NCBI GenBank assembly: GCA_009778325.1
Contig: WRJZ01000033.1
Span: forward strand, 1 to 48,239
Direction of reading: 5' to 3'
DNA length: 48,239 bases
Origin: Candidatus Endomicrobium neocapritermitis
GTDB lineage: Bacteria; Elusimicrobiota; Endomicrobiia; Endomicrobiales; Endomicrobiaceae
Positions 1 to 22,513 of the stretch are shown here, one piece after another (the stretch's first letter is position 1; each line of letters starts with the position of its first letter). The notes beneath the pieces are model-generated. The model saw nothing but the letters and a program-made list of their open reading frames with translations, was not told where the DNA came from and searched no databases. The translations under genes were made by a program, and so were the position numbers.

Positions 1-3000
1 GGAATCAAGATATTCAGGCCAACATGGAAAGGAAACGGAAATATAAGAAAAGCGGTAGATGAAGTAAAAAGCGGCAAGAGCGTAAGAGAGGCGATAGGAT
101 TAACAACAAGCTCTTCAAGCAGCACAACAACATCCGCGACAACGCAAACAACAAGCACAACTAAAACAGAAGAAACAACGACACGGACAACTGCAGCAGA
201 GACAAAGCCGGAAGCAGCGCAGCCTGCCGTACAGACAAAACAAGAAACAGCAGTAGATACGGTAAAGAGTGCTGAAGAGCAAACCAAGCAACTGCTTAAA
301 ACGACAAAAAGAGAATTATTGAAAGACGGCAGCAGCTTAGGCAACGGTGTTGTTGCAAGGGTAATAGGAAAGGTAGCCGGACTTAAGCTTAGCAATGCCG
401 AAAGAAAAGAGATACGCAAAGCCGGTTCGATAAAGGAATTGAAAGCAATTGTAGTGAAGATGGAAGGTAAGAAGGGATTCTTTGCGAGAGCAGCGGTTAA
501 ATCGTTGAAAGCGACAATATCTAAAGCTGAAAGTAAACAGACAGCAAGCGAAGGCGGTAAAGAAGAATCTAAGAGTGACGGAGAAGGAGACGGAGCAAAA
601 GGCGAAAGCGATGTAAAATCCGAAGCAATAAAAGAGACAATAACGGCAAAAGCTGATGAAGCAGCCGATGATAAATATAACGGCCATGACCCTGAAGTTA
701 TAAGGAATATAGCCGAGCAAACAGGAATGACCGAAGAAGAGGTTATAGAGAAGTTTAATAATACAAGAGAAGCAACGCTTGAGTTTGACCGCGCGAACGG
801 GCTGGCGGAAGGCACAACCTTTAATAATGCAATAGCATTGTTGAAGCAGGGTTTTGAAACAGGCTTAAACATATTAAATTGCGCGTCTGAAGCGCTGTTT
901 AATACCCTGGGCGGAGCCGTATCGCAAGGCGTATTGGCATTGCAGGCGCTGTGCGCGGAAATAGCGATGGGCAATTTCAGCGAAGCGAATATAAAAGACG
1001 GACAGGTATATACAAGTTTGGCAGCGGTACAGGCAGTAGAAAATCAATACGGAAGAGAGTCGTCGGGATATTCGGTTGACGTTAACGGATTTGTGCAGGG
1101 CTTGCAGGAAGGCGACAAGGCGGTAATATGGGTTGACGGCAATCATTATATAACGGTAATAAAAAATAGCGACGGGACAGTAAACGTAATAGATCCGAAT
1201 AAGAATAACGGGCAGGCGATGACGTTTACGGCTGACGAGTTCAAGAAGCTGATGAACGGAGCGGAAGCGATAGCGGCAGACGGAAAGAAGGCGCAGGGAT
1301 ACAGCAAAGTGACGGACGCTAACGGCGAGATGAAAGTTTTGACTGACGCTAAGAGAATATCCGAAATAGGGCACAAGCTGGACGCAACCGGCATGAAGAA
1401 TATCATGGGAGCAAAAGGCGGTCCTTTTGGCGGGCTGGTTAGCGGGATAACCAAAGCGTTTAAATCAGTTGTAAACTCCGTTAAAAAAATCGTTAAATCC
1501 GCGATGAAAGCTATTGTTAAAGTCGTATATAATATCGCGGATAAAGTATTCGGCTGGATGTTCAAAGGCGTTGTAGGTCAGTTTCTCCAGAAGATTTTCG
1601 GCGATTTTATGATACCTATTATCCCCGGCCTGGTGTCCATAGGCTTTCAGGACGGCGGATTTCAGGTTATGGTTGGGCCGCATATTGCTTGCGGCAAAGA
1701 CTTTGTAGGCGTTGCATGGGGATATAACAACAAAACAGGAAACACTTTTGCGGCAGGAATTCAAATAGGGGATGCAAAAGGAGCAGGCGGCTTAACGTTG
1801 ATGTACAAAAAAGACGATTATTACGGCGTCAGATTTGAACTGCAGGCAGGCATAAGCTGGTTCGGTACGGTTGGAGTAACGGCAGGAATAAGTTATTGGG
1901 AAAGAGATCCCGACGGATTATACAGAGACGGCTGGAGCGTTAACGCCGGCGTAACTTTCTTGGGCGGAGCCGTCACCATAGGAGTTGAGTATAATTTCAG
2001 ATATCAGGAAATTAAAGTCGGATTGACAGTAGGATACAATGGCGTGGGTCTGCATCTCGGTTATTCATACAGCGCGGTAAGAGATGAAACCGGTTATAGT
2101 ATAGGTTTAAGATTTGGAAATAGCAGCGGCAGTATAACCTTAGGGTATAGCTATAAAGAAGGATTAGCCGGAACATACAATGAGAAAACCGGAAGATGGG
2201 AATTTGACGGCAAGAGCCGTACAAAAACTACAGGGTTCAGCATAGGTTTTGGCGCAACATCAAGTAGCGGGGTTTCTGGCAGCGTAACTTTAGGATTTAC
2301 CAAGACTGAAACCAATTGGAGAGATCAAAACGGAAATCTGGTATGCCGCGATACTTCCAGCGGATTTACAATAGGAATTCAAGGAGGTTATTCACCTGGC
2401 GCGTCAAACGGCAGATCAAATCCTGATGATTATAAAAAGGGCGGCAGTATGCTTGACGCTATGATTGACAGTATGCGCAACGGCGGTATGCTTTCAGGCT
2501 GGAGCACCATGGGCGGAGCGTCTAATTTCCGATTCGAGAAAGCAGGACAGGGATCGTATTCAATGACACTCGGGTACAGAAGCGGAAAAAGAGAATACTA
2601 CGATTCAAAAGGAAATGTTGTTGCTACTACGAATACCCAAGGAATTACGGTTGGTTTCGGTAACGAAAAAGGCGGAGCTACCATTCATGTGGATTGGTCC
2701 AGCGGGACAAAAGTGGATTCAAACGGGAATATAGTCAGCGCAAGTGATTGGAGTCTCTCAGGCTATGTAGATCCTAGTTTACTTGGCAGCGCACTGTCGA
2801 GTTTAGGTAACTCGGACGGTACCGGTATTCTAGCCACAATGGGCCAAATGCTGACCGCCGCCTCACGAGGTTTTGCAGGATTAGGGGACTATCTTAGAGC
2901 AGTGTTTCCTAGCTTAACGAATGCGAATGATCCGACCAAGCCGCCAAGCGCGATGGATAAGTTCATAAATGCATTTGAGAGCGCTTATAATAAGGTGATG

Positions 3001-9000: not shown

Positions 9001-12000
9001 ATAGAAAAAACGTCTAGCACTTTAGACGTGCTTGGCAACAGAACCAATCAAGTTATTCAGGCAAATACATATGAATGGAGTCCGGATAAAGAAGGAAATA
9101 TTGATTTGGGTACGATAAAACACTTTATAAATATTAGCGGATATTATGAATCTTATGACAGGAATAATAATCTGTTAGAGAAAAAAGAGATAGGAACAGG
9201 TTCGCTTGACGGAAGAGGAAGTGCTGCTATGAGGGATATAAAATGGGACGAAAAAGGCAGCATTATTCAATATATTCCTCAAAATTATCAAGTAACTCAG
9301 TATAAGCTTTTAGATATCACTTATTCTGACGGAACAGTTCAGCAGGAATGGAGAAAAACAAGCGCGACAATATTAGACGGCGGCAAGATTACTAATATAT
9401 CTTCTAAGGATGACAGATATGTCTTATCAAGCAGCAGTTTTTATAATGACATTACGTTTAAAACATCCCAAGCTGATAAAAAAGACGGTTGGAAAGTAGA
9501 ATCTTACAGCCTGGTTGAAGGTGTTCGGGAAGTCTCTTATGCTTATAAATATGGACTGGATGGGGAAATGATCGGCGGTCCTGACGGAATAATGACCGGC
9601 GACAAAACGATGTCTAGATTTGAAGTGACATATAATACACAATATTCAAGCGATGGGGTTGACTTTAGTTCTTCTATAGAAGGTAATGTATATGCTTCAA
9701 AAACAAGAACCGATACTATTTCTATGAAGGTCGAAGAAAAAGAAATTGTGAACGGAGAATATACAGGAAAGACCAGAGAGTCCACAAAGACCATAGAGTA
9801 CACGAATAATGAGCGTTATTCAACTGTTGTTACGAATTATTATGGCGTGAGAAAAGAATCTACGCTTCTTATCAACGGAAATATTACAAGCGTTGCTAAT
9901 GCAACTTCGGAAACAGTTGTTTCAGGATATACTCAAACAGTTATAACAAAGGATGAAAAGGGTTATCCTATCCGTGAAAACGTGACGAGCATCAAAGATA
10001 TAACCACGCTGAATTACAGCGACGGTTCTTCTAAGACGGTAAGAAATCTAAATTCCGAAAGTACATATTCCGAGAACACTAAAACACAGCAATTGAACGG
10101 TCTTTTCTTCAATGGTTCTTCTACTACTACGGAATTTGGAGTGCAGGAAATTATACATACCGATAAATTCGGAAATTCCACAACAATAAGAACTTTTGAA
10201 AAATCAATAGTTACAGATTCAAACGGCAGGCTTCTCCAGAAAGCTGAAAACGGCTGGACATATACAGCCGTTGTAAATATGCCTGACGGCAGTACGACAA
10301 AATCAGTTGTAAGGGAAACTGACAAAACCATAAATGATACTTACAAGGACAGCATACTTTCTCCTATTAAAGGTTTCGGCTCGCTTGCCACAACTACAAT
10401 ACTAACCAATACTGCCAGTTATGAATATTATATAGATAATAAGCTTATACATACCTATAGCGATAACGAAATTAAGGTTATAGGATACGGTATGCCTATT
10501 AACTCCGCTCAGACAAAAGAGTTTATTGCTACCGGAAATATAACAATAAGAGAAGGCAGAGAGATATATTCCGAAAGTTTTAACTATACCGCTCCTGACG
10601 GAACAGTAAGCGATCAGGCTGCTTATTCACAATATACAAAAGTTTCTTACGATTATATTGGCGGGACAGTTGCGGAGACAACCGGGCGTAAGGATTTTAT
10701 TAAAGAAAAAATATATGAGGATGGGATTTACATAGGTTACAAAGAAATTGAAAATATCGACAGATATACGACAAAGACTTACGAGTTTGACAAAGACAGT
10801 GACAGTAAAGGCAAGCTTAACAAAATTGAAGAAGGTTATAGCAGAGAATATGATATTAATGTTGCAGATTACACGAGAACAAGTCGTTCCGAATCATTTA
10901 GTCAAGTTGCGGATTATGAAAACGGACAATTCTATATCGTTGCAAATACCAATATTTTTACGAAGCTACAATATACTTCCGATGGAAAATTAATTGACAA
11001 AGAAGTGTCAGGTACTACAAAGAGATGGGATTTTGCCAGCGCCGAATCCGTGTTGGGCGTTAATTTTGATGGAATTAAGAACGCTAAAGGATATTGGAAC
11101 GACGGAATGCTTAATGCGCAGCAAAGTTATTCTTACACTAATAAGAATTTTACGCAAGACGCATGGGGAAGAGAAACGGGTTATGACTTTACAAGAACTT
11201 ATTTTGCGGGCGAATATAAAGGCAAAACAGTAACGGGACGCAATACCACCGAATATGTGCAATATGGAACAGCGGGAGGTACGGCTTATACAACTTATTC
11301 GTCGGTTTCTAAAGCGTACACTGTTGACGGCGTGCCTGTAAATGCAGGAATCAGCGATGGAAAAGATGGAAACGGGCATTTCAAAGTATTAGACCAAAAC
11401 GGCGGATATTTTGCCAACAGCGGCGTGGGCAATACTTCGGCATATAAATCAATAGAATCAAGCAATATAATGAGCGTCTACATAAGCAATATAGCCGCGG
11501 AGATGTTGTCCGACGGAATGATGTATAAAAACTTTGCAAAAATGATGACGATAGAAGCGACAGACACGCAAAAAGGAATGATAAAAGTAGCGGTAGGCGC
11601 AGCTATTGCCGTTGCAGTAGTTGTTACGACTGTTCTAACATGCGGATTAGCTGCTTCTGCGTGGCTTGCTGCTTTTACTAGTGTGTCAGCGGCTTTAAAA
11701 GTTGCGTTTGTTATTGGTATTGCGGGTTACAGCGCATATTTTGCTTACAATAAAGTAGGCGATGCTGTTGACCATGCTTATGAAGGACAATGGGGCGCAT
11801 TTGCCATGGATTTAGTCGGCATAGGCATTTCTTTCTTTGGCGGCGGATTGGCAAGTGGTGCTTTTAAAATAGCCGGAGGTCTCAAAGCAGGAGTAATGAA
11901 GCTTGCTTCAGGTACTGTTTGGAAAGAAGGATTTATTAAGTCCATGGGAATGCAGGTAACTAAAGAAAGCATTAAGGACGCTACTAAATTGGCTGCTAGT

Positions 12001-15000
12001 GTTGTTAACCGTGCTGCTGTTGGAGCCGGTGTAGGTATGGGTTTAAATGCGACCTATCAGTATATAAATAATGGCGGTTGGGATAATTTTAGCTGGAGCA
12101 GTTTTGCTCGCAGCGGCATAGAAGGCGCTTTATTAAATGTAGCTTGGCGCGGTTCAACTGGCGCTTGGGGGAAGACTGTCCAAGGCTTCAGAGGCGCTGG
12201 TTTTAAGGCTCAAGCCGGTATTACATTGAGAGCTACAAGTTTCTTAGGCTCAAAAGTTTTAAGCACTAGTATGATTCATATTGCAATGGGACAGTCTCAA
12301 TACGCTTTTGAAAACGGAAATTATGTGGGCGCGGCATTTAACTTGTTTATAGCTGTAGCTTTCTCTTTCCAGTCAATGATGGGTAATAGAAGAGCTGCTG
12401 AAGCAAAAGAGCTTAACGCTAAACAAAAAACTGACGCACAAGCTGAAGCAAAAGGACTAAAAGATAAACAAAAAGCTGAAGTAAAAGAACTGAAAGATAA
12501 ACAAAGAGCTGAAGTAAAAGAACTGAAAGATAAACAAAGAGCTGAAGTAAAAGAATTGGAAGCGAAAGGCGCAACACAAGCTCAAGTAAAACAACTTAAA
12601 GCGCAACAAAAAACTGATATAGCAAAACTTGAATCAAAATACGCCAGTGCAGAGCAACAAAGAGTAATGCAAATCAAGGAGAAATATGTTACAGAATATC
12701 AAGGGTTAACAACTTTCCGGCAAAAATTTACTTATCATGCCGAAACAGCGGCAATGTTTGGTGTGGCTGCGGCTTCTATGAGCGCAATGATGACAATATC
12801 CGGAAATCTGTCACAAGGTAAAAATCCTTTTACCGGCTTGGATATGGATAATTTAATGGCTGCGTATACCTTAGGAGCTGCTTTTGGATTGTTTGGAAGC
12901 ATTGTTACAAGGAATACAGGCAGTTTTAGGTTCTGGTCTCAAGATGTTATAGGAGGAACTCTTGCAGGCTTAGCTAGCCCAGCGACAATGTTTACTGCAT
13001 TAGGTTCAGCGGCTCATCTTGCAACTTTTAACGCTGTAGCTATGCCTATGCTTCATTTTGCTTTTGATACGGTTAAAATACAACTAAACGATACATTTAA
13101 TACAGATTATTTTGATACTCATTACAAAGGTTCTGATATTACTGAAATCTGGGGTAAAGCATGGGGAGATTATACAGCCATATTTTCCTTCGATGTTTCC
13201 GATAAACATACGCGTGAAGTATGGGCTGAAATAGTAGCAAGCGGCGCCGGTATGGGCGGAGTTGTTTCTCCTTTCTTCGGTATGGCGCTGCCGGCTTATG
13301 CTTTTGGCGGAAGAATCGGAAATATGTTTGTAAAGATAGCTGAAAGCGGAAACTTTGTTGCAGCTATCCCGGGAGTAGGAGGATTAGTTCAAAGATTAGG
13401 AGCTGGCGTAAATACGGCGATTACGCTTAAACAGTTTGAACTTGCGGAATATATCGGTACTGCGGCAGGAGGATGGCTTGACGATCGTCTCGGAATGGAG
13501 AAGAAGTATCAATTAACCAATGGCGAAATGGGCGGATTCTTTGCTTATTCTCTCGGAGCTGTAGCAATGCTATTAGTTCCAAGTAAATCAGGAATGAAAG
13601 CTCTGGATAAAGCCGGCGCTCAGGAATATTTCAAAAATAATCCGGTAGTAAGAAGTCCGGATATGGAACGTTCAGCAAGCAGAGCGCTTGTTGAAGCCGA
13701 GTCCGGTCAAACATTAAGCAGACTTGCAGATCCGTCTGTGAACAGTATTGTTATGAAAGATGCAAAAAATAATTCGTATGTAATAGATATGGCAGGCAGA
13801 GAAGCGCTTAGAGAAGCGGCTAAAGCAGAAATCAATAACAGAGTTGCCGCTCGTACGGAATTATCTTATGCCGAACTTGCATATTATGCCAAATATGGAG
13901 TTGAAGTTGACGGTATAAGGATCAATCAGGAAATTTTAGCGGGAGCTATGGGTGTCAGATATGCTGAAGCTGATTTTGCCGGTAAGTTTGAAATAGCAAA
14001 ACAAATAGACGAATTATTGGCTCCTAAAAATGAAGCGGCAAACAGAGAACTTAATAATAAAGCGCTCGATATTTTAAGGAGTCAAACACAGGAAAAAGAA
14101 AATACAATAAGCAGAAGAGATGAATTTTTAAGTAAAGATGCCAATAATGCCGAAAGAGATGCATTATCTGCGCTTAGGAGTTTAGATAAAGACCTTGCCC
14201 AATTAACCGAAGCGTTAAATAATGTTCCGAAATGGAATACACAGGAACGTATAAAAATTCAGACAGAAATTGATAAAGTGAACACAGAGCATATTCAAAA
14301 AACGGAAATGCTTGACAAGAGTGGTATTGTTTCAGTTAATCGCGCTGAATTTGAAAGAATGAGCGGTGAAGTTAAGGCTTCAAGAGATTTGTTAAATAAT
14401 GCGGAAAGGAATTTATCTGCGCTTAGGAGTTTAGATAAAGACCTTGCCCAATTAACCGAAGCGTTAAATAATGTTCCGAAATGGAACACGCAGGAACATG
14501 CAAAAATTCAGATGGAAATTGATAAAGTGAATAAAGAAATCGATTCAAAAACTGCTCTAGTTGATATGGATGCCAAAGTACAATTTATTCGTGCAAGCAT
14601 TGAACGTGAATTGATGAGCAGTATGGACTTTTTAAGCCTTGGCTTAAAAGGCGGAGAAAAAATAGAATCTGTTAGAGTTGACGGTACAAAATATAAAGTT
14701 ACGGCAGAGATGAGGGAAAAATCTTATGAAATAGTTAAAAGATATGCGGAAGATATAATAAGTCAATACGAGGCATTAAAAGAAAATGTTAATAAATTAA
14801 AAGAAGGCAAAGGAAAAGATGTTATTGTTTTTGAAGAGTTCAAATTAGAAAAACTCAAAGAAGCTTTAAATGAAGTAATGCGCCAGGAAGGAAATGAAAT
14901 AACAATGAGAGCGCAAAGAGAAATAACTGGAGAGGCTTTTGAACGTGTGATAAAAGCTTCTGAGTTTGCAAAACAAGAGTTTTCTCCAGAGTTATTGAAA

Positions 15001-18000
15001 GGCGCTAAGCTGGCCGAAAACGGCATAACCATAAATAATGGGATGATAGAGAAAGTAAGGATTGATTTTGAAGGTAAAGTAATAGAAATATCGGAAGGGC
15101 TATCGCTTAGAAGCTTGGAAGCTTTAGGAGCGAAAATAGAAAATATAAAATTTACCGATAAGTCGTCGGAAGGAGCAGTAAAAAAAGCCCTTACATTTGA
15201 CATTAAACTTAACAAAGTGATCAGTATCGAAGATTATATACTGTCTAATGCTGACATGATTGAATTTGACATTAATAAATCTTTCCGTGAAAAGCTCTTA
15301 AAAGCCGAAAGAGATTTTATGATGGAAAAAGCGAAAGATAAAGACGGTAAAGTAACAAAAGATAATATACGAAAAATAAATGTTGATATTGAAAATTTTA
15401 GAAATAATACTCAAATGTTTACCGACCAGTTTTCATTCCAAAGAGAATGGGGAGCAGTTGTAGGCAAACAAATATATGAAGCTCTTACTAAAACATATGG
15501 CGAAGGTAAAGTAGCGTTGACACAAGCGGATATGTTGGCAATTTACAAACTTGCGGAATCTGTAGCAGGTACGTTTGACAAACTTATAGCAGAATTTAGA
15601 AAGGAGATAAATGCGGAAAAAGAAGCAAAAAGCGCAGGTCTTCCGTATGAAATGAAAAACAGCATTGTTGAAAATGCTTTGAAAGAAGCTGGTTTTGACA
15701 ACAATTTGCAAAAATTTTATGAAAGACTTGAAGTGGTAAATAAAAATATAGATCTAGTTAAAAAAGATTTTTCTCAGGCTGAAAGGATAATAAATGAATT
15801 TGCAGAAAAGATAAATAGAATTGATAGAGATGCTGACAGCTTAATTAAAGAAGGAAAGACTGTTAACGAAGCATTTGTCCGCGAACAAAAACTGTCGGTT
15901 CTTGAAGAGCTTAGAACTTCGATAAAAGAGTCTAAGAATGGCGAAGAAGGGGCATATATCCTCAGACGTTTTGTAGATAAGATGCTTAAAGATGCAGTCG
16001 GCTTTGAACCTCGTGCTTCTCAGTCTGAAATGATAAGCGCTATGTTAAGAGGAGAGAATGTTGCTTTAGGTATGGGTGGCGGAAAAACCGTTTCAGCCGG
16101 TGAGCTTGCCGTTATAAGCAGAATAATATTGGGCAAGGATGCGAATATAGAGATACTTGTAGGAAATGGAGATCTTAACAATTACACCGGCGCAAAATCG
16201 GAAGCAAGAAAACTTGCCGATAAAGTTGGTTTGAAAATGGTTTCCATAGAAGATATAAAAGTCAGCACTGATCGTTTAGCGGAAGCTTATGCTGACCATA
16301 ACTCAATAGTAGTTATGGATCCTACTACAAGAGGGCATTTGAGAAATCAGGCTATCAGTAGCGGAGATGCGAAGTTGAACAAAGCTCTTAACAGTGTTAA
16401 CAGAGTGTTTGTTGATGAAATACACCGCTGGACTTTGGAGAGAACAGCTGCCGTTATTGGCGGAGATAATAAACCGCCGGAGATGGATGTGGTGTTAAAA
16501 GCGGCAGAAATAGTCAAAAAATTAAAGCTTGATAATGTGTATAGAGAAATTATTGACGGCAAAGCAACAGAAACAACTATAAAGATAGAGACATCGGCAG
16601 GAGAAAAAGAAGTAACAGTTAAGCGTTATAATACGATAAGAGAAGCTGAAGTGCTTTTAGAGGGAAGTAAAGAAAACGTTATATCAGTTATCGGTGAAAC
16701 AACCGCAGACAGAAAGATATTAATGACGGATTCAGCTGCTAAGATTGTGGAGTCATTAGGCTACAAGAACAGAGAAATAGACAGTGTAATGCGCGGAATG
16801 TTTGGCGTATCGGATAAAGGAGGCCTTAAATTCGGCGCAGATGGCAGAGTAAAGCCTGTAGGAGAGCAAGGTGTTCAGGAAAATATGGTAATAAGCGACA
16901 TTTATTATCAGCTCGGTTATGCATTGCAAAGAGGTATTATTGAGAAAAATCTGTCAGGTAAAGAACTTGCAGATTTTGCCAGTAAATCTACTCAGACGAG
17001 TAATACGTCTATGCAAACTTCATTGGCTGCAATTTACGATAGAATCGGTACAAGAATGGTAGGTATGTCAGGTACTGTTGCAGGTTTGGAGCAGTTGATT
17101 AGTAATAGAGCAGGTTCTCCAAAAGTTCATGATATTACAGGTGAAAGTGTAAATACGGCAGATTTCAGATCAACTTCAATTACAAAGTCTTCTGAGTATT
17201 CCAAGTTATTTGATGAAGTGCTTTCAGGCAAGAGAGCAATGGACAATGTTTTAACGCTCGCTAAAACTGCTGACAGTAATAGACTTATAAGAGAAGCCAT
17301 CATGGAAAAATATGATGCTCTTACAAAGGCAGGATATAAGATTTATGAATTTAATGACAGGCAAGGCCAATGGAAAGTAAATGAAAAAGGAGAAATAGAA
17401 GTAGAACGTTTAGGCAAAGATAAAGACGGTAACGATATGGATATTTCCTATGTTGCGAAAAATTCTTCTGAGAAACGCATCATAATAGCCAACGAAATGG
17501 GCGCGACGGGCATTGATTATCAGGGTAAATTCGCGAATATTATTTTTGATGCTCATTTAATGAGTAATACTGATCTTGCGCAGGCTATTAAGAGAACAGG
17601 AAGGCCCGGCGGCGACAAAGGAAGATGGGATACGGATCGTTATATTGTTAATAATTACGAAAAGATGAACGCTCAGCTTGAGGCTTTCGTTAAAAATGAT
17701 GCTTTTGTTGATTATGCCAGAAAATCATGGACAGGCGAATCTTATTTGAATAATGAACAGGCGGCATTAAGATTAAAAGTTGAAATGAGAGAAAAACTTA
17801 CGGAAAAGGAATTTGGAAGGTTGCCGGAGCATGGCATTAGGCTTGCAAATGAAACAGGCGAAATTGTAAAATTCCGTAATTACAATGAATATGAAGCTCA
17901 ATATAAGACCGCAAGATTAAGCGCGGAAGATTCGATAGCTTTTGTCTCAAACATAAGGGACTTGTATGATATTAACAGCTCAATACAATTTTCTGTCAGT

Positions 18001-21000
18001 GATACAATGAGAGATAGAATGGTTATCAATCCTTTAAGACAGCTTACTCTCAAAACTTCAGGTGCTGATAAAGAGCGCGTTATGAAAACGCTCAATGATG
18101 TCTTAAACAATAAGATGTCTGAGGTTGATTTCCGTATTAAGAAAGATTCCGGTTCTGTAAAAGATTCTCAAAAAATTATGAAAGAAGTTTTTGACAGAAC
18201 TTATAATGAAGCGTTAACAGTTCTTAAAGAACTAAAACTCAGTGATTCTGTTGCAAAGAATTATGTAAAGAATCATATTGAAGATATGAAAATTGCAAAT
18301 AAAGAATATAACACGTTGAAGGCTAATAAAGAAAGAGGCTTAGATTCAACCCGCAATATGAGTGAGTTTGTAGAAGTAATGAAATCTTTGGAAGATTATA
18401 TGATGCCTGAAATGGCTAGGATGACAGGCAAACAGGAACAATTGATAGCACAGGCTGAAAAAGATATTAAATCAATAGTAAGCAAGCCTGCCGTCGAGTC
18501 CATAAAGGATTCGAAAACTTCAAGAGATGCCGTATTGCCTGAAGCTGCTCCCATGCGTGAATATAGCGTTGCCGAGATGCAAGCCGTAAAGAGTAGCCTG
18601 ATGAGGTCGGTTTTTGCATTAGGAGCATCTGTTGATACCGATTTGGCAAATAAATTGTATAACGGAAATCTAAGTGACGAAGATAAAGAAAAAGTGATAC
18701 GCGATATAATAAACATAGGAGTTTCGGAACTTTATAGAAAAGATTCGGATCTTGCTGTAATGGCGGTTTCAGATTTGGATAATATTGGTGCGTTAATGAA
18801 TAAATATAGAGATGGTGAACCTATAATAACAGGTTCAGTAATACCGCAGTTTAATATTAATTCCAGCGTTGTTGATGAATTCATCGGTGCGTATTCACAA
18901 CTTGCAACTGACTTAGTGTATTCTCTTGCAAATGTAGGTTACATCGGAGAGAAAAAGAGAATAGAACTTGAACTTAATATTACCAAAGAAAATATTTTTG
19001 GATTGATCGCTGAACACGGCTCTAATTGGCAGATTGCTTTTGTAGATTTGATTAGAGAGAGAATAAATAACGTGACAATATCTGCTAATGATAAAGAAAA
19101 CAAAGCTGTAAAAAAACGTATAAAGGAAGTATTGAAAGATTACAGCGGTATCTATACAAAAGCTCCGCTTGCAATACCGTTGTTAAGCCCGGTAAACAAC
19201 CAGCAGAAACTTGATAAATTAACTGCTGGAAAGCAGCCTGCCGAGTTTAGCAGATTGGAAAGATTGCAATACGGCTTCTATCAGTGGAATGCTAAGAGGG
19301 CAAATACGCGTTTGGTTGATAGCAGTCTGTTTGCAAGAATGTTTGTTGAAGAACCTAATACGGACGCGATGATTGCCTTGATGCGTTACGGTGTAAATAT
19401 GCCTAATACGAATGCATCTGTAGTTGACGATAAAATGGTTGATAATTACAAAACGCTTTTTGCCGTGATGCAGTCGTCAAGAGAACATGGCGCAAATTTT
19501 GACAAGAATTATAACTTCAAAGAATTTGACGCGGCGGTGAGAGCGGGAGATTATGTCAAGGCGCTAGAAATAATGTCTGAAAAGTCGGATACTGATTATT
19601 ATGAAATGGTAAAAGGAATACAGAAATTAATAGCTGATAAAAATGCTGAGAAAATGGAATCGTATCAAAAATTCTCTCAGTTGCTAAATAATAATAATGA
19701 AAACATGGACGCTCTGTTAGAGAGTATGAAAAATGTTGGCATCATCACAATGTCTGACATAGAAGAAACCGTGAGAGAAAGAAGCGAGCGTGATAATTTG
19801 TTTATGGCGCTGATGTTGATAAATCCGGAGATTATCGATATAGTGACATACGGTAAACTTAAAGAATATGTTAAAACTAATCCGCAAGCTGATGTAAGAC
19901 AAATAACATTAGAAGAACTGAATATTTTTACCGAACAAAACATCATAACTGAAAATACGCAAGTTACCGAAAAGAAAGCAGAAACTACACCTGTACAGAT
20001 AGCTGCGGAAGCGGCGAAGTTGGCGGCAGTTACAGCGATTGAAGGAACAAATATTACCGGAGAAGCTGTGAGAAGTGTAATAAATCCGATAGATGCAAAC
20101 GGCTTGAATATAAATACCGGCGAACAATGCTTGCTTGCAGCTGCAGATGCGCTTGGCAAAGTCAATCCGCGTATACTTGCAGGAATGATTGCAATTGCCG
20201 CGGCAAACGATGAGCAGATAAATTCGCCTGCGGATATGCTCAGGGCTGCAGGAATAGATGGCGAGAATGCGCTCCGTATGGGTATTCTGAATGAAGTCGG
20301 GCTGAATTCTCATGTTATTCTTCCGGTTGAAAATCTTGTAGATGTAATAATACCTGAAGGCTCGGCCGGTTTTGTAGCGTATCTGAATACAGAAAAAGAA
20401 ACAGGTCATGCGGTTGCCGTAGTGGGTATAGATGCTGCAGAAAAAACGATTACAATAATAGATAATGCGGCAGGAAAGAAAACAATATCAATGGATGAGT
20501 TTAAGCAGATAGGCTTTGAAGGGCTGATATGGGTTGATAAAAATACTGCTAAAGTCAACACAATTATGAAAAAAGCAACCGAAGCAAACAGCGGAAAAAT
20601 AGTGGAAGCGATATTGTCAAGCTCAATGGCAATGCAGATTGAAGTAATCAGAAGTAAGTTTGCCGGTACTGAAGAAGCGAAAGCAGCAGGAGAGAAGCTG
20701 ATTGAAAAGGTTGTTGAAGCATACGCAAGTCCTGAAGAGTTGAAGACAATGGTATTGATAGCTGTAGCTGCGTTCAAAGACGCGGGTGAGATGGAAGAGT
20801 ATCTGGGATTGAAAGGCAGCTATAATAAACAGCAAGTTGCAGAAGCAGCGATGAACAAGATAGGAGAAGCGATATTCTTGGCGCAGCAAGGCGACTTGAC
20901 ACCTGTGGAAAGAGATCAAGAAATAGCATTGATAAGAGTGGTGGCAGACATGTTGATGGCAGCGTCAGAAGATGCAAAAGTGAAAGATATGATAAAGAAT

Positions 21001-21318
21001 GCGAATACGATGGAAGCGATAGGCCTGCTGCAGCAAAGAATGTCTTCGACAGTGCCAGTAAACAGATATGTTGTGGCAGAAGCGATGGCAGTAGCTGTAA
21101 GAGTAGATAACAATATTATGAAGATGGGCAAGGACGACTTTGAGATAAATATAGCGGAAATAAAGATGGGCATTGAGACCGGCAAATCGAAGTTCGAACT
21201 GTTTGGTAAAAAGGATGAAGCAGCGCTGCTGATTATGATAGGAGAAGGAAGAGGCAAGGAAATATTAAGCCCTGTGATGAGACTGGAAACCGCAAAGAGA
21301 ATAGCGGCGGCGGCATAA
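1..21318 (+). CDS. Giant multidomain protein, 5'-partial (two C39-like peptidase domains plus SecA-like ATPase)
   Basis: The frame is open from the first base of the window to the TAA at 21316-21318, giving 7105 visible codons, so the true start lies upstream. A TTG at 319 is only an internal leucine codon. Visible order by codon counted from base 1: Thr/Ser-rich linker (about 35-85); acidic Lys/Glu linker (about 180-225); C39-like peptidase (C294, H382, D398); Lys-rich amphipathic helices (about 480-540); beta-strand-rich barrel-like region (about 550-920); a very long beta-rich stretch with Gly/Ser linkers (to about 3840); hydrophobic segments and coiled coils (about 3860-5000); SecA-like DEAD ATPase (about 5330-5920); alpha-helical region; second C39-like domain (C6710, H6803, D6821); helical tail. 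A strong terminator follows at 21373. Function is unknown. The domain mix suggests a surface or exported machine that is proteolytically processed, which is inference. Confidence 0.9.
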   Translation, partial: GIKIFRPTWKGNGNIRKAVDEVKSGKSVREAIGLTTSSSSSTTTSATTQTTSTTKTEETTTRTTAAETKPEAAQPAVQTKQETAVDTVKSAEEQTKQLLKTTKRELLKDGSSLGNGVVARVIGKVAGLKLSNAERKEIRKAGSIKELKAIVVKMEGKKGFFARAAVKSLKATISKAESKQTASEGGKEESKSDGEGDGAKGESDVKSEAIKETITAKADEAADDKYNGHDPEVIRNIAEQTGMTEEEVIEKFNNTREATLEFDRANGLAEGTTFNNAIALLKQGFETGLNILNCASEALFNTLGGAVSQGVLALQALCAEIAMGNFSEANIKDGQVYTSLAAVQAVENQYGRESSGYSVDVNGFVQGLQEGDKAVIWVDGNHYITVIKNSDGTVNVIDPNKNNGQAMTFTADEFKKLMNGAEAIAADGKKAQGYSKVTDANGEMKVLTDAKRISEIGHKLDATGMKNIMGAKGGPFGGLVSGITKAFKSVVNSVKKIVKSAMKAIVKVVYNIADKVFGWMFKGVVGQFLQKIFGDFMIPIIPGLVSIGFQDGGFQVMVGPHIACGKDFVGVAWGYNNKTGNTFAAGIQIGDAKGAGGLTLMYKKDDYYGVRFELQAGISWFGTVGVTAGISYWERDPDGLYRDGWSVNAGVTFLGGAVTIGVEYNFRYQEIKVGLTVGYNGVGLHLGYSYSAVRDETGYSIGLRFGNSSGSITLGYSYKEGLAGTYNEKTGRWEFDGKSRTKTTGFSIGFGATSSSGVSGSVTLGFTKTETNWRDQNGNLVCRDTSSGFTIGIQGGYSPGASNGRSNPDDYKKGGSMLDAMIDSMRNGGMLSGWSTMGGASNFRFEKAGQGSYSMTLGYRSGKREYYDSKGNVVATTNTQGITVGFGNEKGGATIHVDWSSGTKVDSNGNIVSASDWSLSGYVDPSLLGSALSSLGNSDGTGILATMGQMLTAASRGFAGLGDYLRAVFPSLTNANDPTKPPSAMDKFINAFESAYNKVMNFLVQQQKPIDPAKEFGVKVDENGNIKNGNYTSQYDPNKKLVINENNMQILQGDKLISSVTNNGMLNGLFSASLNMNGNWAETTKGYFDKPISQLQMLDMTSMAYSQGEVGFMKAVFSQQAFHSFEAQSGTVYTKNRDGSISANTSGTKPEAKSSVDDYYDIKSGDNKVIFLTTSGRDQGYGISAKVYTVTTEKTSVSKQLADGTYGILTRNLAGGQVISDVLTGGKSVYGDYAVDYSLVDVDGELKLKATQVFTMVSTPDGVLSSGQKIISLDKKGSSSAEGKPGSKGDSSDSTNPNELIRTSANMGAYPSGNTMPSNVSQNDIYAALINEALGTSYSAKDLNLSASVYYYNSAKNEVSKKETLGNGSTRTTTGTLADGKRFADVVGGDDNIINQAIFKESGVQVVHTDTIKTADGKEVTRTTFSSAKVGADGKINLDSLESTAPQLIDFGNGYKIQTTVTNANKIMNDNYTPEYANADGGNGVVATRIVDGATLSNVAVNVSIIEGKLQVSVVKGPDGKVHGEALFNSEKGDTKSSIKANVEVIMDQKTGEWKINIPDNAAGTRLNELKDGTKIQENVTMQNGQWVAKDFSSSILKSSVLINGVSITEQILNANVEYDGKGGYKIIAKDGVTKGQFISETKDKDGKIIAKDFFTDLAYGSMTGVLDRVKAGEKLDSILSGSNKTLWVINDDGTSTVEVHINAGTIRNDVTITSKVDFKYEINAEGVPKVVSGSDKVKGYYTNADGREFDIDAKFGLTAEGISINGKIIVGNDKNKQPFVMTSAGSGGGGGQGSAPDTRDASDTKAKIISEDGRTIITDGTISLRDGKAVIFGDKAIALTGSQLMTEAGGLVTLHKDHTMINGQWRTGTEFDKKGNFIQGDSTNAYSYNDGGVAAAKAAGEMLEALGYSSGGIASIENLLKGPQSGNIPTNGLQIIENALRSNGGTGKAVEAKVGLDSKGNEVQFGGVALPTGIDVLFKLDDKGNLGLFAVNNFNTIGSLPKDYELMRASGIASNVVNLEFKKDQQITLANGLINYFDRYGDHYITNSAGMKITVDGVEKIFEKGDLKISTDKAGNFVADLSGRKDFVFVHNGDNVQMISAKVDISDSSFNIIEADLKLIGVKVENTKGEGGEGGGVKTVFKGTVHAGKADGILTVSGVNFSSENFLSGIITINNLYSVGSEFYKGSDVIGHGKVKSGTVRIVSIDANGQRILVSVGGRAEITSGSLKSAGGLITEKYNEKGCIEKTRTIDKGGSGWNGVDKEGNKLTGKCDKGTLFVQKFAIDYVTVDGQRIGVPTDKVASSYWKGSVTLTAETAEGKGTYNFKLNADGKTLNYNSGTAIIGGKTYQVKNGQVTIPASAADKFVFNAQDMRYDVTTAKGMKAFTVAVHQEIKAEKERQLQRTGEYATARIAELEKVFGKGNVKIQDVLMPNKSGFVPVSDLNTFLKGVDVLSQPSVNFINEVAKNNTKVIVVTVDGREYRYNTNDGKEMANLDRKASEVKNREIAAQIVKDTKGLVKDNQTLGYYYDKGKDYTAVGVIDTMKMQEVKPGETGNFYVPGANGQPGTWYKIVDSGPYGSQSISTVNARTTFSVLSRGENGKVTVMEGFNNGNYSAKLTEYHLSYNSAGEITQVAKLELAHEREGWIIPSTVINVTQTTYSSIADAVNGQNGSKPIISTVSGGSSDSVYDAYHSLFAYGMGKDAHFKSNNMIVESSVIGDNRYSYITLITDNGAKKDKDRKIQTVTQYQTVADAKTGFVMENSVISCNVNVRPDNIERIDQRNGQTTYGTQKVIDYYANALKNGNADIIRYTSNKYNNDGSIASSFNADSGGRAYVDRNGVVQAVFNIKDSNGQSISSAMPTFYTSLADDLAFNAGAKSATVLSGLDLNGITFGGASLNNMIALKYDWDLFTNSYTLVDLQTGKLFYGTQKDKAYYFRAYGDNDTEVLRLQEIGDRDIKLSLFSEKGDIITPKTQISISHNSFTGLISVETMSMIDPSKNLIEKTSSTLDVLGNRTNQVIQANTYEWSPDKEGNIDLGTIKHFINISGYYESYDRNNNLLEKKEIGTGSLDGRGSAAMRDIKWDEKGSIIQYIPQNYQVTQYKLLDITYSDGTVQQEWRKTSATILDGGKITNISSKDDRYVLSSSSFYNDITFKTSQADKKDGWKVESYSLVEGVREVSYAYKYGLDGEMIGGPDGIMTGDKTMSRFEVTYNTQYSSDGVDFSSSIEGNVYASKTRTDTISMKVEEKEIVNGEYTGKTRESTKTIEYTNNERYSTVVTNYYGVRKESTLLINGNITSVANATSETVVSGYTQTVITKDEKGYPIRENVTSIKDITTLNYSDGSSKTVRNLNSESTYSENTKTQQLNGLFFNGSSTTTEFGVQEIIHTDKFGNSTTIRTFEKSIVTDSNGRLLQKAENGWTYTAVVNMPDGSTTKSVVRETDKTINDTYKDSILSPIKGFGSLATTTILTNTASYEYYIDNKLIHTYSDNEIKVIGYGMPINSAQTKEFIATGNITIREGREIYSESFNYTAPDGTVSDQAAYSQYTKVSYDYIGGTVAETTGRKDFIKEKIYEDGIYIGYKEIENIDRYTTKTYEFDKDSDSKGKLNKIEEGYSREYDINVADYTRTSRSESFSQVADYENGQFYIVANTNIFTKLQYTSDGKLIDKEVSGTTKRWDFASAESVLGVNFDGIKNAKGYWNDGMLNAQQSYSYTNKNFTQDAWGRETGYDFTRTYFAGEYKGKTVTGRNTTEYVQYGTAGGTAYTTYSSVSKAYTVDGVPVNAGISDGKDGNGHFKVLDQNGGYFANSGVGNTSAYKSIESSNIMSVYISNIAAEMLSDGMMYKNFAKMMTIEATDTQKGMIKVAVGAAIAVAVVVTTVLTCGLAASAWLAAFTSVSAALKVAFVIGIAGYSAYFAYNKVGDAVDHAYEGQWGAFAMDLVGIGISFFGGGLASGAFKIAGGLKAGVMKLASGTVWKEGFIKSMGMQVTKESIKDATKLAASVVNRAAVGAGVGMGLNATYQYINNGGWDNFSWSSFARSGIEGALLNVAWRGSTGAWGKTVQGFRGAGFKAQAGITLRATSFLGSKVLSTSMIHIAMGQSQYAFENGNYVGAAFNLFIAVAFSFQSMMGNRRAAEAKELNAKQKTDAQAEAKGLKDKQKAEVKELKDKQRAEVKELKDKQRAEVKELEAKGATQAQVKQLKAQQKTDIAKLESKYASAEQQRVMQIKEKYVTEYQGLTTFRQKFTYHAETAAMFGVAAASMSAMMTISGNLSQGKNPFTGLDMDNLMAAYTLGAAFGLFGSIVTRNTGSFRFWSQDVIGGTLAGLASPATMFTALGSAAHLATFNAVAMPMLHFAFDTVKIQLNDTFNTDYFDTHYKGSDITEIWGKAWGDYTAIFSFDVSDKHTREVWAEIVASGAGMGGVVSPFFGMALPAYAFGGRIGNMFVKIAESGNFVAAIPGVGGLVQRLGAGVNTAITLKQFELAEYIGTAAGGWLDDRLGMEKKYQLTNGEMGGFFAYSLGAVAMLLVPSKSGMKALDKAGAQEYFKNNPVVRSPDMERSASRALVEAESGQTLSRLADPSVNSIVMKDAKNNSYVIDMAGREALREAAKAEINNRVAARTELSYAELAYYAKYGVEVDGIRINQEILAGAMGVRYAEADFAGKFEIAKQIDELLAPKNEAANRELNNKALDILRSQTQEKENTISRRDEFLSKDANNAERDALSALRSLDKDLAQLTEALNNVPKWNTQERIKIQTEIDKVNTEHIQKTEMLDKSGIVSVNRAEFERMSGEVKASRDLLNNAERNLSALRSLDKDLAQLTEALNNVPKWNTQEHAKIQMEIDKVNKEIDSKTALVDMDAKVQFIRASIERELMSSMDFLSLGLKGGEKIESVRVDGTKYKVTAEMREKSYEIVKRYAEDIISQYEALKENVNKLKEGKGKDVIVFEEFKLEKLKEALNEVMRQEGNEITMRAQREITGEAFERVIKASEFAKQEFSPELLKGAKLAENGITINNGMIEKVRIDFEGKVIEISEGLSLRSLEALGAKIENIKFTDKSSEGAVKKALTFDIKLNKVISIEDYILSNADMIEFDINKSFREKLLKAERDFMMEKAKDKDGKVTKDNIRKINVDIENFRNNTQMFTDQFSFQREWGAVVGKQIYEALTKTYGEGKVALTQADMLAIYKLAESVAGTFDKLIAEFRKEINAEKEAKSAGLPYEMKNSIVENALKEAGFDNNLQKFYERLEVVNKNIDLVKKDFSQAERIINEFAEKINRIDRDADSLIKEGKTVNEAFVREQKLSVLEELRTSIKESKNGEEGAYILRRFVDKMLKDAVGFEPRASQSEMISAMLRGENVALGMGGGKTVSAGELAVISRIILGKDANIEILVGNGDLNNYTGAKSEARKLADKVGLKMVSIEDIKVSTDRLAEAYADHNSIVVMDPTTRGHLRNQAISSGDAKLNKALNSVNRVFVDEIHRWTLERTAAVIGGDNKPPEMDVVLKAAEIVKKLKLDNVYREIIDGKATETTIKIETSAGEKEVTVKRYNTIREAEVLLEGSKENVISVIGETTADRKILMTDSAAKIVESLGYKNREIDSVMRGMFGVSDKGGLKFGADGRVKPVGEQGVQENMVISDIYYQLGYALQRGIIEKNLSGKELADFASKSTQTSNTSMQTSLAAIYDRIGTRMVGMSGTVAGLEQLISNRAGSPKVHDITGESVNTADFRSTSITKSSEYSKLFDEVLSGKRAMDNVLTLAKTADSNRLIREAIMEKYDALTKAGYKIYEFNDRQGQWKVNEKGEIEVERLGKDKDGNDMDISYVAKNSSEKRIIIANEMGATGIDYQGKFANIIFDAHLMSNTDLAQAIKRTGRPGGDKGRWDTDRYIVNNYEKMNAQLEAFVKNDAFVDYARKSWTGESYLNNEQAALRLKVEMREKLTEKEFGRLPEHGIRLANETGEIVKFRNYNEYEAQYKTARLSAEDSIAFVSNIRDLYDINSSIQFSVSDTMRDRMVINPLRQLTLKTSGADKERVMKTLNDVLNNKMSEVDFRIKKDSGSVKDSQKIMKEVFDRTYNEALTVLKELKLSDSVAKNYVKNHIEDMKIANKEYNTLKANKERGLDSTRNMSEFVEVMKSLEDYMMPEMARMTGKQEQLIAQAEKDIKSIVSKPAVESIKDSKTSRDAVLPEAAPMREYSVAEMQAVKSSLMRSVFALGASVDTDLANKLYNGNLSDEDKEKVIRDIINIGVSELYRKDSDLAVMAVSDLDNIGALMNKYRDGEPIITGSVIPQFNINSSVVDEFIGAYSQLATDLVYSLANVGYIGEKKRIELELNITKENIFGLIAEHGSNWQIAFVDLIRERINNVTISANDKENKAVKKRIKEVLKDYSGIYTKAPLAIPLLSPVNNQQKLDKLTAGKQPAEFSRLERLQYGFYQWNAKRANTRLVDSSLFARMFVEEPNTDAMIALMRYGVNMPNTNASVVDDKMVDNYKTLFAVMQSSREHGANFDKNYNFKEFDAAVRAGDYVKALEIMSEKSDTDYYEMVKGIQKLIADKNAEKMESYQKFSQLLNNNNENMDALLESMKNVGIITMSDIEETVRERSERDNLFMALMLINPEIIDIVTYGKLKEYVKTNPQADVRQITLEELNIFTEQNIITENTQVTEKKAETTPVQIAAEAAKLAAVTAIEGTNITGEAVRSVINPIDANGLNINTGEQCLLAAADALGKVNPRILAGMIAIAAANDEQINSPADMLRAAGIDGENALRMGILNEVGLNSHVILPVENLVDVIIPEGSAGFVAYLNTEKETGHAVAVVGIDAAEKTITIIDNAAGKKTISMDEFKQIGFEGLIWVDKNTAKVNTIMKKATEANSGKIVEAILSSSMAMQIEVIRSKFAGTEEAKAAGEKLIEKVVEAYASPEELKTMVLIAVAAFKDAGEMEEYLGLKGSYNKQQVAEAAMNKIGEAIFLAQQGDLTPVERDQEIALIRVVADMLMAASEDAKVKDMIKNANTMEAIGLLQQRMSSTVPVNRYVVAEAMAVAVRVDNNIMKMGKDDFEINIAEIKMGIETGKSKFELFGKKDEAALLIMIGEGRGKEILSPVMRLETAKRIAAAA
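844..1290 (+). other. N-proximal C39-like cysteine peptidase domain of the giant protein
   Basis: A papain-fold C39-like unit is suggested by Cys at 880-882 in an NCASEAL context, His at 1144-1146 in GNHYITV and Asp at 1192-1194 in VIDPNK. The Cys-His distance is 88 residues and His-Asp is 16, close to the spacing of bacteriocin-processing C39 peptidases. The oxyanion Gln normally found near the Cys is not obvious here, so activity is uncertain. This domain may be a degenerate, C39-like pseudopeptidase. Confidence 0.6.
1651..2760 (+). other. Beta-strand-rich, barrel-like region of the giant protein
   Basis: Roughly 370 codons show alternating polar/apolar strands rich in Gly, Tyr and Phe, repeatedly of the type GxxxGxxY or SITLGYSY, separated by short polar turns. 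The pattern is like that of outer-membrane beta-barrels or porins. It follows a Lys-rich amphipathic helical segment (about 1440-1650). It could also be a soluble beta-solenoid. Calling it membrane-inserted is inference. Confidence 0.4.
2761..11520 (+). other. Long beta-rich repetitive region of the giant protein
   Basis: About 2900 codons of Asp/Asn/Gly-turn beta sequence (patterns such as DGKxxxxVV, NGxxI, KDGxxxxT) without a catalytic motif that I recognise. Low-complexity Gly/Ser linkers near 3829-3880, 5359-5390 and 6388-6415 divide it into blocks of similar size. It resembles extracellular stalk or RHS-like architecture, but no canonical YD repeats were recognised. It probably acts as a structural spacer or surface-exposed filament. 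Confidence 0.4.
11560..13600 (+). other. Hydrophobic segments and coiled coil in the middle of the giant protein
   Basis: Ala/Val/Gly-rich stretches at about 11575-11650, 11660-11750 and 11800-11900 are long enough to span a membrane. More follow at about 12260-12390, 12745-12960, 13000-13080, 13210-13400 and 13530-13580. A Lys/Glu/Gln coiled coil at 12391-12690 separates two groups. The pattern suggests membrane-embedded or strongly aggregating helices in the centre of the polypeptide. Topology cannot be fixed by eye. Confidence 0.45.
12442..12570 (+). repeat. 33-bp in-frame tandem repeat (AEVKELKDKQR, about 4 copies)
   Basis: Units at 12442-12474, 12475-12507 and 12508-12540 plus a partial unit from 12541 encode an 11-residue coiled-coil motif. 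Units 2 and 3 are almost identical in DNA, which suggests recent expansion of the coiled coil in whole 11-residue steps. Confidence 0.85.
14164..14289 (+). repeat. 126-bp intragenic direct repeat, copy 1
   Basis: This in-frame segment begins LSALRSLDKDLAQLTEAL and is repeated 249 bp downstream. About the first 73 bases are identical in the two copies and later bases differ at only a few positions. It lies in a predicted coiled-coil region between the hydrophobic segments and the SecA-like domain of the giant protein. Confidence 0.85.
14413..14538 (+). repeat. 126-bp intragenic direct repeat, copy 2
   Basis: This is the second copy of the segment at 14164-14289, in the same reading frame. The distance of 83 codons keeps the frame. 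Near-identity at DNA level, including third codon positions, points to a recent duplication. Confidence 0.85.
15985..17760 (+). other. SecA-like DEAD/SF2 ATPase domain of the giant protein
   Basis: The motifs appear in SecA order. A Q-like segment (PRASQSEM) is followed by Walker A GMGGGKT at 16069-16089, Walker B VDEIH at 16411-16425, motif III GMSGT at 17062-17076, a motif V-like ATGIDY near 17500-17520 and motif VI QAIKRTGRPGG at 17581-17613. The 216 residues between Walker B and motif III leave room for an insertion like the SecA preprotein-crosslinking domain. Bacterial SecA drives export through SecYEG. A SecA-type motor embedded in a giant protein is not the housekeeping SecA and its substrate is unknown. 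Confidence 0.75.
20104..20540 (+). other. C-proximal C39-like cysteine peptidase domain of the giant protein
   Basis: Gln-Cys at 20125-20130 (GEQCLLAAADAL), His at 20407-20409 (GHAVAVVGID) and Asp at 20461-20463 (IIDNAAG) form the expected C39 Gln/Cys/His/Asp arrangement. Spacings are 93 and 18 residues. Unlike the N-proximal domain, the oxyanion Gln is present directly before the Cys, so this copy is the better candidate for an active peptidase, perhaps one that processes the giant chain itself. Confidence 0.7.
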
Positions 21319-21406: not shown

Positions 21407-21435
21407 TTGTATTTAGAAATGGATTGTATTATAAT
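21407..21435 (+). promoter_or_regulatory. Sigma70-type promoter of the MNT/HEPN operon
   Basis: TTGTAT at 21407-21412 and a perfect TATAAT at 21430-21435 are separated by 17 bp. Transcription would start near 21442, directly upstream of the AGAGG Shine-Dalgarno at 21442-21446. Confidence 0.7.
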
Positions 21436-21453
21436 AATTGCAGAGGTAAATAT

Positions 21454-21771
21454 ATGAATAAAAAGATAGATAATCTTGCAAAAGAATTAAGAAACGCTTT
21501 ACAAAAATCTTTTAAAGATTTTGAGGGATTATATGTTTTTGGTTCGCAGGCAAAAGGTACTGCTAATGAATACAGCGATGTAGATATAGTTGTGATTTTT
21601 AAAAATAATCATGAAAATGAGTCTGATGAATATTATCGTATTATTTCTAAATTAATGTATGATTATGGTGTTGTATTGGATGTTCATAGAAGAACCCGTA
21701 AGCAATTAGAATTTAATTATCTGTTTCACAATGAAGTTGTAAATAGAGGGGTGTTTTATGATGCCGCATAA
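21454..21771 (+). CDS. MNT-type nucleotidyltransferase antitoxin (MntA-like)
   Basis: This 105-residue minimal nucleotidyltransferase carries the exact GS-x10-DxD signature (GSQAKG, then SDVDIV) and a third Asp in VVLDVH, the catalytic triad of this fold. In characterised HEPN/MNT modules, MntA-type proteins neutralise the HEPN RNase by adenylylating it. ATG 21454 is chosen because AGAGG lies 7 nt upstream. The frame extends 5' to a TTG at 21424, but that start would lie across the -10 box. The 3' end overlaps the HEPN gene by 14 bp, indicating translational coupling. The pair sits as a cassette between 119-bp direct repeats. Confidence 0.85.
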   Translation: MNKKIDNLAKELRNALQKSFKDFEGLYVFGSQAKGTANEYSDVDIVVIFKNNHENESDEYYRIISKLMYDYGVVLDVHRRTRKQLEFNYLFHNEVVNRGVFYDAA

Positions 21772-22153
21772 AGATATTTTGATAAATATGTGGATAGAAA
21801 AAGCAAATACGGCCATTGAAGATGCGCAGGCAGCATATGATAGTAAGAGATTTGAAAATTCAATGAATAGAATTTATTATGCAATATTTTATATGGTTTC
21901 ATCTCTAGCGCAAAAGAATGATTTTGCGACTTCAAAACATTCGGTTTTATTAGCTTGGTTTAACAAGAAGTTTATCTATGAAGATAAAATTTTTGACGAG
22001 AAATTGTTCAAAATATATTCTAAGGCATTTTCATTGAGACAAGAAAGCGATTACGATGTTTCTTATAAACTGAATGTCGAAAAGGTAAAAGAACTATTAT
22101 TCGAAGCGAAAGAATTTATTAAAGAAGTTAAAGAATATGTTTTGTTAAAGTGA
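21758..22153 (+). CDS. HEPN-domain protein, toxin partner of the MNT antitoxin
   Basis: This 131-residue all-helical HEPN protein has the family core NRIYYAIFYM and a downstream TSKHSVL segment, as in the PF05168-type HEPN group. Such proteins act as RNases in MNT/HEPN toxin-antitoxin modules. The usual catalytic motif R-x4-6-H is altered: Arg is followed by Tyr where His is commonly found (R-x6-Y). It may therefore be inactive or use a different residue. The gene overlaps the antitoxin by 14 bp. AGAGGGG lies 7 nt before ATG 21758, with a second ATG at 21761. Confidence 0.75.
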   Translation: MMPHKDILINMWIEKANTAIEDAQAAYDSKRFENSMNRIYYAIFYMVSSLAQKNDFATSKHSVLLAWFNKKFIYEDKIFDEKLFKIYSKAFSLRQESDYDVSYKLNVEKVKELLFEAKEFIKEVKEYVLLK

Positions 22154-22465: not shown

Positions 22466-22513
22466 TATCTATAAATTGTTTTATTGTGTGTAAATATACT
22501 TATAGGTATTATT

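Follow-up and report, generated by a model that had tools for sequence, protein, structure and literature searches.

A SecA-like motor within a giant, most likely exported protein of Candidatus Endomicrobium neocapritermitis, with counterparts in Elusimicrobiota and Omnitrophota

The giant proteins of bacteria, which rank with the largest known, have almost no annotated parts. Giant open reading frames (ORFs) of the Omnitrophota, including one for a protein of 39,678 amino acids (aa), were described by Seymour et al. 2023 (PMC10066038), and SecA is unmentioned in that work, the main open-literature description of these giants. SecA-like domains related to helicases were described by Zhang et al. 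2012 (PMC3482391) in effectors of Amoebophilus, an amoeba symbiont; these effectors are presumed to target a eukaryotic host. The contig WRJZ01000033.1 of Candidatus Endomicrobium neocapritermitis, analysed here over its whole length of 48,239 bp (the window), begins with a giant ORF of 7,105 codons that combines two C39-like peptidase domains and a SecA-like motor in one polypeptide. Its length of more than 20 kb, predicted membrane helices and surface-like parts are shared with the Omnitrophota giants (PMC10066038), from which it differs in that the motor and a C-terminal alanine tail tie giants of two phyla together. A SecA-like domain is shared with the Amoebophilus effectors, a comparison made from their description, but no giant export architecture is described in the accessible part of that source (PMC3482391). 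Both the giant ORFs of these phyla and the SecA-like domains of symbiont effectors were known before; the recurrence of a SecA-type motor in giant exported proteins with a shared alanine tail is new, being undescribed in the literature searched. No combination of Omnitrophota, giant proteins and SecA was found in the open literature that was covered, a scope that ends short of the giant-gene preprint of West-Roberts 2023 (cited in PMC12057145).

The giant ORF (1..21318, forward strand) is open from base 1, ends with a stop codon at 21316-21318 and has no internal stop among its 7,105 codons, in agreement with an earlier note made from the letters of this DNA. The window is the complete contig (G000:C33) of a 2.38-Mb genome in 54 contigs, so that the 5' truncation of the gene comes from the contig end, where the true N-terminus with its presumed signal peptide was lost. 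At 21.3 kb, 5'-incomplete and with membrane helices, the window giant falls within the Omnitrophota-type class of giant ORFs (>20 kb plus helices); the hint of the earlier note at the Omnitrophota as the lineage was one phylum off, as the source groups with the Endomicrobia (Elusimicrobiota). Searches of Pfam and NCBIfam returned only sub-threshold matches to the giant, two to Peptidase_C39 and one to Helicase_C.

The SecA-like motor (codons 5300-6180; 15898..18540, forward strand), recognised by alignment, an AlphaFold2 (AF2) model, Foldseek and an iterative profile, is free of cysteine. Its ATPase motifs stand in SecA order, as had been claimed from the letters: Walker A GMGGGKT at codons 5357-5363, the DE pair at 5472-5473, GMSGT at 5688-5692, motif V GATGIDYQG at about 5834-5842 and motif VI RTGRPG at 5865-5870. 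The Walker A lysine, the DE pair, the threonine of SGT and both arginines of motif VI are invariant in ten aligned motors that have 30-44% identity to the window. RecA folds had been expected at codons 5330-5920, and the AF2 model of the motor (pLDDT 70, pTM 0.59) matches SecA, and SecA only, at ranks 1 to 27 of a Foldseek search of the Protein Data Bank (PDB; best E 3e-11), RNA and DNA helicases first appearing at rank 28. The agreement in fold covers almost the full length of SecA. The insert from DE to SGT has about 220 residues, compared with 183 for the preprotein-binding domain of housekeeping SecA.

Similarity to SecA can also be followed by sequence through sister giants. In those of family f14 (4,433 and 5,255 codons), the motor shares 35-37% identity with housekeeping SecA along 578-635 aa (E 4e-94) and has the motifs TGEGKS, DEVDSLFLDEA, ITGT, TNLAGRGTDI and LRGRAGRQG. 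A housekeeping-SecA profile matches giants of Omnitrophota down to 1e-42 and those of f14 at 1e-108. One and two rounds of iteration bring in a further type, named for contig C40 of the same genome as the window, at 4e-34 or below, together with two motors of the window type (4e-6 to 1e-7). With those two motors added, the profile matches the window at 1.6e-11 across the whole motor, every shuffled decoy scoring 0.18 or worse. The identity of the window motor as a relative of SecA (Pfam PF07517, SecA_DEAD) is well supported by the order and spacing of motifs and by the closest fold, alongside the direct sequence similarity of the f14 giants. Whereas housekeeping SecA is a stand-alone cytosolic protein of about 870 aa with a C-terminal zinc-binding CxC...CC tail, the window motor is embedded in the 7,105-codon frame of a seemingly exported giant of more than 7,000 residues, lacks the zinc motif, and exists alongside an ordinary SecA of 878 aa in the same genome. 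Between two flagellate endosymbionts, the ratio of nonsynonymous to synonymous substitution (dN/dS) is 0.089 for the motor, 0.395 upstream and 0.24-0.29 downstream; purifying selection on the giant is strongest at the motor. Nothing was drawn from a motor tree that lost the window-type sequences in trimming and had only five SecA outgroups.

Relatives of the motor were found in 12 of 60 genomes of the same family, where the ORFs with full-length matches span 3,846-9,550 codons unless their contig is too short, and in 21 of 341 genomes across the phylum; the single window sequence as a query of genome contigs gave no match, and an alignment query succeeded. The relatives belong to Endomicrobium, to Candidatus Endomicrobiellum (symbionts of termite-gut flagellates), to rumen and sediment Elusimicrobia, and to one Omnitrophota record, a contig of 75,147 bp that is one open frame of 25,048 codons. 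In addition to housekeeping SecA, 15 of 68 Omnitrophota genomes have SecA_DEAD above the curated cut-off within ORFs of 1,900-39,033 codons, as do giant ORFs of several Elusimicrobiota; hits scoring 18-32 bits in RecG-sized ORFs (about 700 aa) were counted as noise. A control phylum, to which a genome labelled Lachnospiraceae belongs, yielded no giant SecA_DEAD ORF in 71 genomes, none of the SecA_DEAD ORFs there exceeding 1,012 codons. The longest of the Omnitrophota ORFs (G360:C47, 74879 to contig end; 39,033 codons, 5'-open), similar in size to the described 39,678-aa protein, has SecA_DEAD at 120.6 bits and ends in ...SVATAA. One short contig (L046, G342:C51) in the genome labelled Lachnospiraceae encodes a motor of the window type, at 47% identity, and is probably a mis-binned contig of Endomicrobia. 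Four flagellate-symbiont genomes (G028, G035, G048 and G321; L061-L073) have short motor fragments, some with stop codons, so the giant gene is also being lost, through decay in some of these genomes.

The genome of the window contains other giants. One on contig G000:C40 (L078-L080) has at least 9,048 codons, SecA_DEAD above the cut-off, and its motor near the N-terminus (about residues 830-1800). It runs off the contig end and seemingly continues on G000:C6 (L101) through a shared repeat, ending in ...AREIMTAA. Downstream of this end, contig C6 has a 632-codon signal-peptide ORF that leaves the contig end and is likely the upstream part of the window giant; no sequence overlap between contigs C6 and C33 was found, and another genome has both giant types on a single contig. 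The motor stands at about residue 1,000 of 9,000-10,000 in the sister type and near the C-terminus in window-type giants. A third giant (G000:C38:7789-21399; L099, L100) of 4,537 codons has the same signal peptide and C39 domain, with neither motor nor alanine tail. The C40-type, f14 and several Omnitrophota giants have in common, within their N-terminal residues (about 100-550), a domain that Pfam does not recognise, marked by INIQDxH towards its start and VTGGFH towards its end.

Several features suggest that the giants leave the cell. Every giant ORF with a complete, reliable 5' end begins with a signal-peptide-like N-terminus that has a long basic part, and in relatives the signal peptide starts 20-110 codons upstream of the stretch that aligns with the window. 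Nine cysteines occur among the 7,105 residues of the window protein, two of them catalytic: there is none in codons 3882-6709, and Cys6710 is the only one in codons 3882-7105. Elusimicrobiota motors have six cysteines in 11,710 aa (0.05%), compared with four or five per 800 aa in housekeeping SecA. Exported proteins avoid cysteine, in agreement with a calibration on the same loci, where cysteine makes up 0.59% of signal-peptide proteins and 1.26% of non-exported ones, and tryptophan is not reduced. A protein that combines a signal peptide with near-zero cysteine has most likely left the cell.

The giants also share an ending. Among Elusimicrobiota ORFs, 13 of the 15 giants end in alanine versus 9 of 230 ordinary ORFs (Fisher 4e-14), and among those of Omnitrophota 6 of 8 versus 11 of 98 (1.7e-4), counting giants of at least 1,400 codons with the stop inside the contig and excluding one Omnitrophota ORF that ends in masked sequence; since window-type ORFs are mutually homologous, the independent cases are fewer than these counts suggest. 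The alanine ending is common to at least four unrelated C-terminal parts, and all six such Omnitrophota giants end in Ala-Ala. Endings are usually -xAA or -xQA (RIAAAA, AVAQAA, SVATAA, SIAQAA), even among otherwise unrelated giants. In the window giant, whose extreme C-terminus is encoded at 21271-21315, the tail (...TAKRIAAAA) closes a C-terminal domain (20686..21315, forward strand) that is conserved in the alignment of relatives. It could be a tail for sorting, processing or degradation.

C39 peptidases are known from peptide-exporting ABC transporters and, as Tox-PL-C39, from polymorphic toxins (PMC3482391), and the two C39-like domains of the window giant resemble them in their Cys/His/Asp set and in similarity to Pfam C39. 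Unlike the ABC exporters, in which the peptidase is fused to the transporter and cleaves double-glycine leaders, the giant has no ABC transporter domain detected by Pfam on its polypeptide and uses C39 twice. Both catalytic sets, which had been picked out before from the letters, stand up to comparison with relatives. Domain 1 (codons 215-480; 643..1440, forward strand) has Cys294, His382 and Asp398, invariant in 10 of 10 aligned sequences, and domain 2 (codons 6640-6870; 19918..20610, forward strand), present only in a subset of relatives, has Cys6710, His6803 and Asp6821, invariant in the 4 of 4 that retain it; in several relatives that retain the motor, domain 2 is absent or degenerate. Peptidase_C39 matches to the window alone are below threshold (E 0.0054 and 0.018), whereas with trimmed domains Pfam C39 matches 8 of 10 members for domain 1 (best 3.8e-6; Peptidase_C39_2 best 3.4e-8) and 3 of 4 for domain 2 (best 0.002). 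The AF2 model of domain 1 is weak (pLDDT 59), and its top fold matches are papain-fold proteases at a level that is not significant (best E 7.3e-3).

Between domain 1 and the motor lie three further parts. Codons ~501-3855 (1501..11565, forward strand) form a part that is beta-rich by sequence and composition, rich in S, T, N, G and Y, with a barrel-like stretch at ~560-960; Pfam recognises no family in it, and its codons 2602-3855 are shared at 34% identity (BLASTP) with the giant of a congener (G022). Next comes a hydrophobic, Ala/Gly-rich helical stretch (codons ~3843-4530; 11527..13590, forward strand) with two strong membrane-helix peaks at 3863-3907 in the hydropathy profile; the last hydrophobic peak cluster precedes the motor by about 1,270-1,530 aa in eight window-type giants. 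A mostly helical linker (13588..15897, forward strand), assigned from sequence, connects this stretch to the motor and includes an internally duplicated, coiled-coil-like segment (codons ~4721-4860), in which a near-identical segment of about 40 residues (ALSALRSLDKDLAQLTEALNNVPKWNTQE...) occurs twice, at codons ~4721-4760 and 4806-4845.

The explanation preferred here, tentatively and with somewhat less than an even chance of being right, is that Sec exports the giant and that its motor half acts outside the producer, in a compartment supplied with ATP, most likely the cytosol of another cell. With its ATPase residues invariant, the motor must act where ATP exists; this need and the likely export together point to another cell's cytosol, with entry by way of the hydrophobic stretch before the motor. 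The giant chain would leave the producer through the general Sec pathway, its beta-rich part would be displayed or bound to a neighbouring cell, the hydrophobic stretch would enter the neighbour's membrane, and the C-terminal half, comprising the motor and here the second C39 peptidase, would reach the neighbour's cytosol, which may be that of a prey bacterium or, for intracellular relatives, of a protist. Supplied there with ATP, the motor may handle polypeptide, either pulling in the remainder of the giant or acting on the target's export channel, and the peptidases may cut parts of the giant free. Both the site and the purpose of motor action are inferred. The differing place of the motor among giant types, its low dN/dS and the precedent of the Amoebophilus effectors also speak for this explanation. 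MARTX-type and other large autoprocessing toxins similarly consist of a giant exported chain with an internal cysteine protease, a membrane-entering stretch and a delivered part; the comparison is one of workings, implying no sequence relation, and these toxins are not known to have a SecA-like motor. A wider and rather unlikely proposal is that giants of two phyla carry a SecA-derived motor out of the cell, that this motor uses the ATP of another cell to drive the protein or its cargo into it, and that the shared -xAA tail marks a common handling step.

Several observations weigh against action in another cell. SecA ordinarily acts inside its own cell, and the target cell, delivery and cleavage are all hypothetical. 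Cysteine avoidance shows an association with export rather than delivery into another cytosol, and it is weaker in Omnitrophota motors (0.26% cysteine). No immunity gene and no toxin domain was recognised. As to the motor itself, its fold matches have modest TM-scores (best 0.50 on the target, SecA bound to SecY, and 0.44 on the query), the domain arrangement of the AF2 model is uncertain, the motor alignment matched nothing when searched against PDB sequences, and direct profile-profile comparison (hhalign) of window-type motors with SecA was not significant, so that the SecA identity is carried by the iterative profile chain and the fold.

The main rival, rather unlikely on present evidence, is self-export or anchoring: the beta-rich part would exit through SecYEG, the hydrophobic stretch would anchor in the inner membrane, the motor and C39 domain 2 would stay in the producer's cytosol to drive or hold export and cut the chain, and the alanine tail would be a cytosolic degradation signal, C-terminal -LAA-like ends being read by ClpX. 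A variable passenger before the hydrophobic stretch and a conserved C-terminal module after it, at the constrained motor spacing of the eight window-type giants, fit this arrangement, as does the composition of the C-terminal part, ordinary and cytosol-like except for cysteine; and no other part is as conserved as the motor, which would follow if its partner were the cell's own conserved channel. However, the motor half nearly lacks cysteine, which would suit a motor that is itself exported; the motor of sister giants is near the N-terminus, between the signal peptide and the bulk of the chain, so that its varying position allows no constant role during its own export; and the second C39 domain is dispensable in motor-bearing relatives, so that self-processing by paired proteases is not a fixed design. 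An export or surface machine in which motor, proteases and beta-rich part share one polypeptide, the interpretation of the earlier note, remains plausible given that shared polypeptide and the signal peptide of relatives, while these same three findings count against its idea of a motor for self-export.

The beta-rich part resembles surface material, and a role as adhesins or coat has been proposed for the giants of the Omnitrophota (PMC10066038). The window protein might likewise be a giant adhesin or coat protein of the cell surface, with SecA-like and peptidase domains that are now structural relics. Relics would drift, whereas the ATPase residues are invariant in ten motors across genera, the motor has the low dN/dS given above, and the catalytic residues of the first C39 domain are invariant; this reading is already disfavoured and improbable. 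It is still less probable that the motor is an effector of helicase type that acts on nucleic acids instead of polypeptides: Helicase_C (E 3e-4, slightly below the cut-off) is the only Pfam match to the window motor, and SecA belongs to the same superfamily-2 fold as the helicases that follow from rank 28, but 27 SecA structures outrank every other helicase, the DE-SGT insert is near that of SecA in length, and sister giants have textbook SecA motifs. The possibility that the frame is an assembly artefact or pseudogene, raised by a contig end that cuts the gene, by contig ends that fall in repeats in this genome and by a frame change that splits the ORF of one relative, is negligible and was rejected, because separate assemblies carry giant relatives in the same order with the same motor at 30-44% identity, 7,105 codons are free of stops, and the gene is under purifying selection. 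The split giant (G041:C1:7136-23142) lies in two overlapping frames of 1,520 and 3,846 codons, through a sequencing error or a genuine frameshift.

A secretion operon adjoining the giant was sought and not found, the downstream genes of the window being of housekeeping and toxin-antitoxin types. Directly after the giant is a nucleotidyltransferase/HEPN pair of toxin-antitoxin type (21424-22153), followed by an HTH/HipA pair (22484-24176), and DUF1016 (YhcG) nucleases are encoded at 24308-25354 and 45679-46752. Polymorphic toxins have an exchangeable C-terminal tip and an adjacent immunity gene; in the window giant and its relatives, the C-terminal part is the conserved part.

The SecA-type motor, alanine tail, cysteine avoidance and signal peptide amount to a common anatomy for many giants of the Elusimicrobiota and Omnitrophota, which makes the function of these proteins testable domain by domain. 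The unexpected question is what role an export motor has in a protein that seemingly leaves the cell. If the explanation by action in another cell is true, a protein-translocation motor would have been turned into a weapon or a device for host interaction, and the persistence of giant genes in intracellular symbionts of termite-gut flagellates gives it a bearing on host interaction as well as on predation. The presence of the same motor inside giants of two phyla may account for the function of some of the largest proteins known.
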